Origin: Methylocella sp.
GTDB taxonomy: Bacteria; Pseudomonadota; Alphaproteobacteria; Rhizobiales; Beijerinckiaceae
NCBI GenBank assembly: GCA_037200525.1
Contig: JBBCGG010000001.1
Location: 273,526-337,525 of the forward strand
Length of the DNA stretch: 64,000 bases
Reading direction: 5' to 3'
A program made the translations under genes and the position numbers. Positions 30,075-33,428 of this stretch are shown here, in pieces (within the stretch, counting starts at the first letter, position 1; each line of letters begins with the position of its first letter). The notes under the pieces were generated by a model. That model made no database searches and was not told where the DNA came from. It was given only the letters and a program-made list of their open reading frames with translations.

Positions 30075-32090
30075 CTATCTGGTCGGCTGTTCGGCGACTT
30101 TATCCTGCTGATCCGTGGTCGGCGCCTTGGCCAGCAGCGCATCGATGCGATCGCGTTCGCGCTTGAAATTGGCGAGCATGGCGCCATCGAACTCGCGGGT
30201 CCGCGCCAGCTTGACGCGCATCGGATCGACGAAATGGCCGTTGACCATGACTTCATAGTGAAGATGCGGGCCGGTCGCGAGGCCGGTCTGACCCAGATAG
30301 CCAATGACCTGCCCCTGGCGAACGCGGGTTCCTTCGACGGCTCCCCGGGCGAACCCCGACATATGATTATATGTCGTAACGTAGCCGTTCGCGTGCTGGA
30401 TCTCGATGCGGCGGCCGTAGCCTGAATCCCAACCCGCCTGGGTGATCGTGCCGTTGCCCGCCGCAAAGATGGGCGTGCCGATGGGGGCCGCCCAATCAAC
30501 GCCCGTATGCGGGCGCGAATAACCAAGAATTGGGTGGAAACGGAGGCCAAAGCCCGAGGTGAATCGGGCGTTTATAATTGGCGTGCGCACCAGAAATTTG
30601 CGCGTCGAACGGCCGTCTTGATCGTAAAAGTCGAGAAGACCGTCATCGGGCGTCTGAAACCGATAGTAATGGTAGGTTTCATTGCGCGCGGTTATGGTTG
30701 CATAGAGCAGCTGATTATGTCCGTCGCCTTCTTCGCTCTCATCGTAAAAAGCCTCAAAAGAGTCGCCGCCGGCGACTGGCCGCTGGAAATCAACGTCATT
30801 GGCGAAGATGCGGACGAGATCATCAATGATCGGGCGAGGAATTTCTTGTTTCAGCGCGGTCTCGTAAAGCGAATCATAGAGCCGCATCCCGTCTGGATCA
30901 TCTTCTTCATCGCTGTCCGGCGTCGGCTGTTTGGCGGGGTGCTGCGGCGCCGTCACCCGCACATAGTCGCCCTGGTCATCAATGGCGACGCTGCTTTCCA
31001 GGGTCTCATCGGAGTAGATGGAAAGCCGAGCGAGCGTGCTGGCTTGCCCGGACCCATCTAGATCGGTGAAAAGAAGTTTGACGCGGCGGCCCTCGGTTGC
31101 GGCCACTTCGTTGCGTTTGAGCGCGAAAGCTCCGATCACGGCGGCGATTTTGTCTTTCGTCAACCCCGCCGCGCGGAGAACATCCTCGAGCGTTTCGCCG
31201 TGCCGCACCACGACAAGCCGCTCCTCCATTTGCGTTGGCTGCGGGCTCTGCGGCGAACGCGCGACGTTGCTCACATTCTCAGGAACCATGCGCACTTCAA
31301 TTGCGGAGAAGGGCGTCGCCTTGATCTGCCCGGCGGGATTGGCGTAAGCGAGCGCGCCGGGGAAATTAGTGTGGCTTGTGCGCATCAAAAGAAGTTGCGG
31401 CGGCAGCGCAATCGGCGTCGACCCCGCGGTCGTCGTATCTTTGACCTGTTCGGCCACCTGCGCCCGAACCTCATCATCGGTCAGGCCGATCGCCGACAGA
31501 TTCTCGGCTGCGATGTCGCGGATCGACCATGAAACTTCGGCGTCGTCTTGAACCGGCTCCGGCGTCGCATCGATCGGGCTGCGCGCATCGGCCAGAATCT
31601 TCAGAGGATTGAAAGGCGGGACGTCGTCGGTAAAGCCCGCGCTCGCCAGAACGAGGCCCGTTTCGACTCGCGTAAAGGTGTGAATCCGCATCACTTCCTT
31701 GTCGCCGACCTTGATCGCCGTAGGCGCGCGGAAGGTTTGTTTCGCTGCGACGATGTCGACCGACTGCACCAGCCGATCGCCTTTATGCTGATTGACGCCG
31801 AAATCGATGTTGATTTCCTTGCGCGGCGCGAGCGAGGGCGCCTCGGCGAAATAGGCTTGATTGCCGAGCGCCGCATAAATCGCCGCGCCGATCAGCGCGC
31901 CGCCGGAGAGGCCGGTCAAAATCGTGCCGGAAAACCAACGCAGCGATATGCGCCGCCGGTCGAACGACGAATGGCGCTCGCCATCGGCTTCTATAGCGGG
32001 CTCGTGGCCAAGATCCATGCCGCCATGAAAGCGGGCGGACCAAAGGCCCACCGCAAGCGGATGACTTCGCAAGTGCGAATCCATTGTCAT
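30075..32090 (-). CDS. M23-family metallopeptidase, membrane-anchored
   Basis: 671 residues. One N-terminal membrane helix (FSGTILTGLSGGALIGAAIYAAL, residues ~53-75), then a long periplasmic region with an OapA/LysM-like segment (HGETLEDVLRAAGLTKDKIAAVIGAF). The C-terminal M23 domain has zinc motifs HTGVDWAAPIGTPIFA (HxxxD) and GPHLHYEV (HxH). It likely cuts peptidoglycan cross-links. An alternative ATG lies two codons inside. It stands alone, with no division genes nearby. Confidence 0.9.
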   Translation of the reverse strand: MTMDSHLRSHPLAVGLWSARFHGGMDLGHEPAIEADGERHSSFDRRRISLRWFSGTILTGLSGGALIGAAIYAALGNQAYFAEAPSLAPRKEINIDFGVNQHKGDRLVQSVDIVAAKQTFRAPTAIKVGDKEVMRIHTFTRVETGLVLASAGFTDDVPPFNPLKILADARSPIDATPEPVQDDAEVSWSIRDIAAENLSAIGLTDDEVRAQVAEQVKDTTTAGSTPIALPPQLLLMRTSHTNFPGALAYANPAGQIKATPFSAIEVRMVPENVSNVARSPQSPQPTQMEERLVVVRHGETLEDVLRAAGLTKDKIAAVIGAFALKRNEVAATEGRRVKLLFTDLDGSGQASTLARLSIYSDETLESSVAIDDQGDYVRVTAPQHPAKQPTPDSDEEDDPDGMRLYDSLYETALKQEIPRPIIDDLVRIFANDVDFQRPVAGGDSFEAFYDESEEGDGHNQLLYATITARNETYHYYRFQTPDDGLLDFYDQDGRSTRKFLVRTPIINARFTSGFGLRFHPILGYSRPHTGVDWAAPIGTPIFAAGNGTITQAGWDSGYGRRIEIQHANGYVTTYNHMSGFARGAVEGTRVRQGQVIGYLGQTGLATGPHLHYEVMVNGHFVDPMRVKLARTREFDGAMLANFKRERDRIDALLAKAPTTDQQDKVAEQPTR

Positions 32091-32463
32091 TACGATTGTG
32101 CGAACCTAGCCAATGCCTGCTCTTCGAATATTCAAAGGCCCACATGCGAGCCGGACAGTTTTATAAGCGCGGGACGTGAGCCCGGATCGATATTCGGAAC
32201 CTCGAGGCGATTTTCTCGGAATTCTATTTCGTAAAACAGGCCTCGCGTGAAGGGCGTAGCCGCGGCGGGAATGGCGGACGCGACTTAATCCGCTTAGAGG
32301 TCAAAGCTCTCTGCACAATCGCGCCAGACCCGATCATGCTCCCGCTTTGATTTCAATGCACTCCTTGATTGTAGAGACAAAGCCTGCTGAAGATGGCCCA
32401 AATGCGGCGCATGTTTTTTGGGAGCCATTTCGCCCCGAAACTCCTGGGCGGCCTCGGAAGCGG

Positions 32464-32492
32464 TTGACAACAAGCGCGCGTTTTTGTAACAG
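32464..32492 (+). promoter_or_regulatory. Sigma-70 promoter of rplU-rpmA
   Basis: TTGACA (32464-32469), exactly 17 nt, TAACAG (32487-32492). The -35 is perfect consensus. Transcription would begin near 32499, giving a leader of about 185 nt before the rplU ATG. Confidence 0.7.
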
Positions 32493-32502
32493 ACTAACCC
32501 TG

Positions 32503-32526
32503 CGCGGCGCTTTGGCCGCGTTTTTT
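32503..32526 (+). terminator. Terminator-like hairpin at the 5' end of the rplU leader
   Basis: CGCGGC-GCTTTG-GCCGCG followed by TTTTTT and C: a 6-bp perfect GC stem, 6-nt loop and six T residues, an intrinsic-terminator form. It begins only a few nucleotides after the predicted transcription start, so it may act as an attenuator or as a 5' stabilising hairpin for the L21/L27 mRNA. Confidence 0.6.
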
Positions 32527-32683
32527 CGTTTGCGCCGTTCAAATTCATGTGCCTTCGGACCAAAATTCCGGTCGCGCAGAATGATTTTGCCGGCATACGA
32601 AATACGGCTTTGCGACAACTGCTAAGAAGCCGGCCGCCGGAGCCTCCGCTCCGGAAGAGCCGGATCGAACATAAGGGAAAACA

Positions 32684-33058
32684 ATGTTCGCAGTGATCAA
32701 AACCGGCGGCAAGCAATATAGCGTCGCCGCCGAAGACACGATAACAGTTATGAGCCTCGCTGGCGCGCCCGGCGATGTGGTGACGTTCGACAATGTTCTG
32801 ATGCTCAGCGGAGAGGGCGAACCGACGATCGGCGCGCCTTTTATCGAAGGAGCCAGCGTCGCTGGCGAGATCGTCGCACAGAAGCGCGGCCCCAAGGTCC
32901 TCGCCTTCAAGAAGCGGCGGCGCAAGAATTCGAAGCGCAAGCGCGGCCATCGCCAAGACTTGACTCTGGTGCGGATCACCGGCCTTTCGACCGGCGGCGC
33001 CCAGCGTTCCTCGGCGGCCCCTGTTTCAGCCGAGACTGCAAACGTCCCGGCGGAATGA
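32684..33058 (+). CDS. rplU: 50S ribosomal protein L21
   Basis: 124 residues. Begins MFAVIKTGGKQYSVAAEDTI; the RNA-binding block KVLAFKKRRRKNSKRKRGHRQDLTLVRI is typical. Large-subunit assembly protein. A C-terminal extension after ITGLSTGG is alphaproteobacterial in style. First gene of the rplU-rpmA unit. Confidence 0.97.
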   Translation: MFAVIKTGGKQYSVAAEDTITVMSLAGAPGDVVTFDNVLMLSGEGEPTIGAPFIEGASVAGEIVAQKRGPKVLAFKKRRRKNSKRKRGHRQDLTLVRITGLSTGGAQRSSAAPVSAETANVPAE

Positions 33059-33152: not shown

Positions 33153-33428
33153 ATGGCGCATAAAAAGGCAGGCGGTTCGTCCCGCAACGGCCGCGACTCC
33201 GCGGGCCGACGTCTCGGCGTGAAGAAATTCGGCGGCGAGTCCGTGATCGGGGGCAATATTATTGTGCGCCAGCGCGGCACAACCTGGCATCCCGGCGACA
33301 ATGTCGGGATGGGAACGGATCATACGCTGTTTGCCCTGGTCGAAGGCAAAATCAAGTTTGTGACCAAAGCCAGCGGACGCGCTTACGTGTCGGTAGTTCC
33401 ACATCCACAAGTAGAAGCCGCAGAATAG
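33153..33428 (+). CDS. rpmA: 50S ribosomal protein L27
   Basis: 91 residues starting [28 protein letters not shown], diagnostic of L27, whose N-terminus reaches the peptidyl-transferase centre. The ATG at 33153 matches the family start; there is no Firmicutes-type cleavable leader. It follows rplU by 94 nt. Confidence 0.97.

Follow-up and report, generated by a model that had tools for sequence, protein, structure and literature searches.

We analysed a 64,000-nt stretch of Methylocella sp. DNA (hereafter the window) in which rplU, encoding ribosomal protein bL21 (32684..33058, + strand; PF00829, E 2e-35), is followed by rpmA, encoding ribosomal protein bL27 (33153..33428, + strand; PF01016, E 2.9e-38), and further on by a gene for an Obg-type GTPase; upstream of rplU lies a divergent M23 peptidase gene (30075-32090). 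The rplU promoter consists of a -35 box, TTGACA (32464..32469, +), and a -10 box, TAACAG (32487..32492, +), separated by 17 nt. Nearly all relatives have TTGAC upstream of rplU, and the position of the -10 box relative to the hairpin described below is kept in relatives as well. From a spacing of 4-7 nt past the -10 box, we predict that transcription starts within 32496..32499 (+); a start at A32496 or A32497 would leave 5-6 unpaired nucleotides before the stem and would place the U-run at about +26. A near-palindrome, ATGGCYCAAATNNGGC, lies ~50 bp upstream of the -35 box (window 32392-32408, GATGGCCCAAATGCGGC); 12 rplU upstream regions, the window's among them, carry it, some as the perfect GCCCAAATTGGGC, and the genome has one further exact copy (at G000:C1:2166732). 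It looks like a candidate transcription factor site that the divergent M23 peptidase gene shares with rplU.

Just past the -10 box, GCGCGGC-GCTTTG-GCCGCGT (32502..32521, +) folds into a hairpin of seven pairs, with stem arms at 32503-32508 and 32515-32520, the loop GCTTTG and an outermost G-U pair (G32502-U32521). Six T residues follow directly past the stem (32521-32526) and begin a U-rich tail, TTTTTTCGTTTG (32521..32532, +), which completes the form of an intrinsic terminator, that is, a stable GC-rich hairpin with an adjoining U-tract. When the first 32 nt of the predicted transcript are folded, the hairpin alone forms (88% of the ensemble, -14.4 kcal/mol, five unpaired 5' nucleotides), and the hairpin persists when the whole rplU 5' leader is folded. 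Its stability and the T-richness of its tail are at the level of gene-end terminators in the same genome, where the pattern GCGCGG-N4-10-CCGCGY-T5 has one other exact copy, right past a stop codon. The earlier note on this DNA had reported promoter, hairpin and T6 exactly to the base, in sequence and in coordinates; its description of the promoter as consensus holds for the perfect -35 box and fails for the weak -10 box, which matches TATAAT at only 3/6 positions without the last T and for that reason was missed by our promoter scan of the window.

Several other identities for this structure were considered and rejected. A bidirectional terminator does not fit, since on the minus strand the stem is not followed by a U-run, and a tRNA gene does not account for the hairpin, as none lies within the window. 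An Rfam scan of the window returned a cobalamin riboswitch only (RF00174, 46204-46414, +, 101.8 bits), with no family and no riboswitch at the rplU hairpin, and L21_leader (RF00559) had no match in the window, while 20 related loci gave none at E <= 1. Attenuation by a leader peptide or a riboswitch was likewise rejected: because a leader ORF, an aptamer or an anti-terminator would not fit 5' of the stem, the anatomy excludes classical attenuation, barring a start further upstream.

Conservation of the hairpin and its tail

We compared rplU upstream regions from 56 genomes of the same lineage and order, from 80 named genomes (including Methylocystis, Methylosinus, Chelatococcus, Bosea, Aureimonas, Bartonella, Phyllobacterium, Rhizobium and Ensifer) and from ~85 genomes across the class, scoring a hairpin when it reached <= -9 kcal/mol and started at most 20 nt past the -10 box. 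With promoters and starts predicted in all loci, and with the loci related by ancestry, we found the hairpin in 93/127 order and named leaders and in 49/82 class-wide leaders. In mononucleotide-shuffled leaders it appeared at ~20% (23-34/136 and 11-15/82). Both hairpin and U-rich tail (at least five T in eight, a threshold chosen after viewing the data) were present in 55/127 and 16/82 leaders, respectively, vs. 0-1 (~1%) after shuffling. The earlier note had made its reading depend on conservation of hairpin and U-run in relatives; the hairpin is conserved, and the two together are found in the fractions just given, the U-run being absent in Rhizobium and Ensifer. Clustering the order and named leaders (<65% identity between clusters) left 27 clusters, 18 with the hairpin and seven with hairpin and tail (2-6 and 0-1 in dinucleotide shuffles).

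The element is not a general feature of promoters, an explanation that we rejected on the own-genome background, for which we used the window and 20 sampled stretches (464 kb). Of the 157 TTGAC-type promoter-like sites there, rplU was the only one with a hairpin and T-run; generic promoter-like sites carried a hairpin at 27/136, close to what shuffling gives, and a hairpin with tail was seen at 0/156 others.

In relatives, when the first 110 nt are searched, the strongest hairpin usually begins 6-17 nt past the -10 box, and mostly 9-14 nt past it, leaving mostly 2-7 unpaired 5' nucleotides before the stem if the predicted starts are right. The 10 nt past the stem contain 51% T, compared with 18% leader-wide, and T stays at ~40-60% by position over these 10 before returning to near the 18% baseline; because A reaches only 12% there, the tail is U-specific and not merely AU-rich. 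Across 40 relatives, two-sided changes occur in 5/7 stem pairs, and 92% of cells in the stem alignment are paired vs. 28-58% when the alignment is slid. The stem sequence itself, G(G)CGYGG..CCGCGCC, is rather conserved, and the loops vary widely. Judged by these sequence comparisons, the hairpin at the predicted start of the rplU mRNA is not a product of chance and is a real element for control or protection. Our literature search turned up no account of a 5' hairpin at rplU, and by that measure the element is so far undescribed.

The same comparisons bear on whether the hairpin could end a transcript arriving from upstream and so shield rplU from read-through, with the true rplU start elsewhere. 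Its terminator form does sit between the divergent gene and rplU; however, the M23 peptidase gene is divergent, so no recognised gene reads in, the position of the hairpin is tied to the -10 box throughout the order, and nearly every relative has a good promoter at the corresponding distance from it. We consider this explanation very improbable.

The hairpin tied to the message start extends through the Alphaproteobacteria, with variation in its tail. Methylosinus sporium is an example of a culturable member with the U-tailed form, and Sinorhizobium meliloti of one lacking the U-run. Rhizobium and Ensifer/Sinorhizobium keep the hairpin (GGUGUGG-loop-CCGUGCC) without the U-run, so termination cannot be its sole function, and the terminator form cannot be essential, because it is absent from two relatives of the same genus (L010 and L016). 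In other classes of the phylum a comparable hairpin was found at 2/19 loci, several with weak promoter calls, and none was found in the Escherichia coli rplU leader; we therefore rejected a phylum-wide feature, and absence outside the Alphaproteobacteria is only indicated.

The hairpin at other ribosomal protein genes

The same placement recurs at other ribosomal protein genes of the order: rpsT carried the hairpin in 17/29 leaders (seven with tail) and rplM in 16/28 (five with tail), and rpmB in 6/27. In rpsT and rplM leaders such as L256, L257, L266, L344 and L369, the hairpin starts ~9-15 nt past the -10 box and is in some cases U-tailed. Read by eye, the rpsT and rplM leaders of the Methylocella genome itself do not have the layout. 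Controls, built on predicted promoters of uneven quality and thin on the non-ribosomal side, gave a hairpin at 1/6 ppa promoters and 0/6 rpoZ promoters and only one promoter for rpsP, too few to count. The hairpin is thus a feature of several ribosomal protein mRNAs in the Alphaproteobacteria, strongest at rplU, and because rpsT and rplM share the layout we rejected an L21-specific feature.

This distribution weighs on the suggestion, made in the earlier note, that the hairpin links L21/L27 output to ribosome assembly. An autogenous attenuator of this kind, in which L21, L27 or an assembly intermediate would bind the nascent hairpin and set termination, is in keeping with the location in a ribosomal protein leader and with the rather conserved stem sequence. 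Against it stand the same layout at rpsT and rplM, loops that differ widely among relatives, and a mere ~5 nt 5' of the stem, where a sensor would have neither space nor time to form; the better candidate for protein binding is a separate covarying element beside the Shine-Dalgarno sequence. A review (PMC10931766) cites the E. coli rplU-rpmA operon as not responding to its own products, that is, as not feedback-regulated. Since other ribosomal protein genes share the layout and the loops vary, an L21-specific attenuator or sensor is unlikely, and we give the autogenous version little credence.

A second element near the Shine-Dalgarno sequence

The better-placed element, at 32617..32683 (+), reads ACUGCUAAGAAG - P1 - P2 - AGA - CGAACA - Shine-Dalgarno AAGGG, in which P1 is a helix (32631-32634/32659-32662, +) and P2 a hairpin (32637-32642/32649-32654, +). 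Its structure is supported by strong covariation across 36 relatives (84 two-sided changes vs. 35 in shuffles), with 85% of cells paired vs. 26-43% when slid, and these patterns make it a better r-leader candidate than the 5' hairpin. The corresponding region of Phyllobacterium, Rhizobium, Sinorhizobium and Bartonella matches the Rfam family BSnc140 at scores under the gathering threshold (E 3e-4 to 8e-3), and BSnc140 is listed in a review (PMC9751625) as a 94-nt, Northern-validated RNA of Brucella suis. We infer that BSnc140 is probably a fragment of the rplU leader, a translational bL21 r-leader of Hyphomicrobiales filed as a Brucella sRNA, and not a free sRNA.

In six loci of other Alphaproteobacteria (L022, L027, L032, L043, L047 and L048), the last 120 nt before rplU carry a different conserved pattern, GCGCTGCCCGAGGC ... 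AAGTCCGC ... GCGGCGCCGCAGGGCGCG, which is possibly another form of r-leader.

Discussion

We propose, with a probability of roughly 0.45, that the rplU element is a promoter-proximal intrinsic terminator and that its hairpin then forms the 5' end of the mRNA that reads through. RNA polymerase leaving the rplU promoter would have the hairpin complete at ~26-31 nt, when it stands on the U-run; some transcripts would be released at ~+26 to +31 as ~30-nt RNAs, and the remainder would read into rplU-rpmA. In the putative read-through mRNA, the hairpin would lie a few nucleotides from the 5' end and would hinder 5'-end-dependent decay (of the RppH/RNase E or RNase J type), and it would in this way both trim output very early and protect what passes. 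Termination would probably depend on the general state of elongation (polymerase speed, NTPs, NusA/NusG) and not on L21. Intrinsic termination ~30 nt past a start is unusual, and it may be inefficient. We favour a combined function because the U-specific tail is left unexplained by a pure stabiliser, and the lock to the start and the hairpins without U-runs are left unexplained by a pure terminator.

The main rival holds that the hairpin is a 5'-terminal stabiliser and nothing else, slowing RppH, RNase E or RNase J by its nearness to the 5' triphosphate and prolonging the life of selected ribosomal protein mRNAs, with the U-run a by-product or an unstructured spacer. The cap-like stabiliser offered in the earlier note survives in this form as a live alternative, one to which 5' stem-loops known to stabilise mRNAs (ompA and papA, as cited in PMC3997798) lend plausibility. 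It accommodates the position of the hairpin, which is fixed tightly relative to the start and not to the gene, its retention without a U-run in Rhizobium and Ensifer, and the likewise placed hairpins of rpsT and rplM, in which the tail is weaker. It leaves unexplained why the tail should be rich in T and poor in A, and a purine start is predicted to put many of the stems 5-7 nt from the 5' end, as far as or farther than the spacing at which stabilisers in E. coli cease to work. A stem within ~4 nt of the 5' end would be expected of such a stabiliser; the predicted starts place it after 5-6 nt in the window and mostly after 2-7 nt in relatives. We hold this explanation to be possible and somewhat doubtful.

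Extended to the class, the terminator reading would make these elements the 'earliest possible' attenuators of the Alphaproteobacteria: intrinsic terminators that would be finished at ~+30, fixed to the promoters of several ribosomal protein operons, deciding the fate of polymerase just past promoter escape and coupling output to general transcription conditions without a ligand or a leader peptide. We put this forward as a speculation that is rather unlikely to hold. Should the U-tailed form terminate, a large bacterial class would have a checkpoint on ribosomal protein mRNAs right past promoter escape, together with a layer of ~30-nt RNAs that standard RNA-seq libraries discard; should it act by 5' protection only, ribosomal mRNAs would have a stabiliser found across the class. 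In both cases, leader hairpins at single ribosomal protein genes are not to be assumed autogenous, and the element next to the Shine-Dalgarno sequence is pointed to as the likely r-leader of rplU.

Among known systems, BSnc140 (RF02623, filed as a Brucella sRNA) resembles the region just upstream of rplU in Hyphomicrobiales relatives, at a sub-gathering score, and the resemblance is to the Shine-Dalgarno-proximal element, not to the 5' hairpin. Ribosomal protein leaders such as that of Bacillus subtilis L20 and the L21_leader of Firmicutes (RF00559) share with the rplU leader a structured RNA with a terminator form; unlike them, the rplU hairpin has no preceding sensor domain, does not match RF00559 and is common to rplU, rpsT and rplM, and what is r-leader-like at rplU is the separate element near the Shine-Dalgarno sequence. 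The stabilising stem-loops of E. coli ompA and papA and of B. subtilis aprE likewise sit at the very 5' terminus of abundant mRNAs, in a position tied to the start; the rplU hairpin differs in being followed by a U-run and in its class-wide occurrence on ribosomal protein mRNAs, and its effect on decay is putative. Rho-independent terminators act at gene ends or after a regulatory leader, whereas the rplU hairpin lies ~5 nt past the predicted start of the transcript of an essential gene and its terminator function is a prediction; in anatomy, however, with a GC-rich stem of 6-7 bp, a 6-nt loop and six U directly after it, the rplU hairpin matches the gene-end terminators of its own genome.
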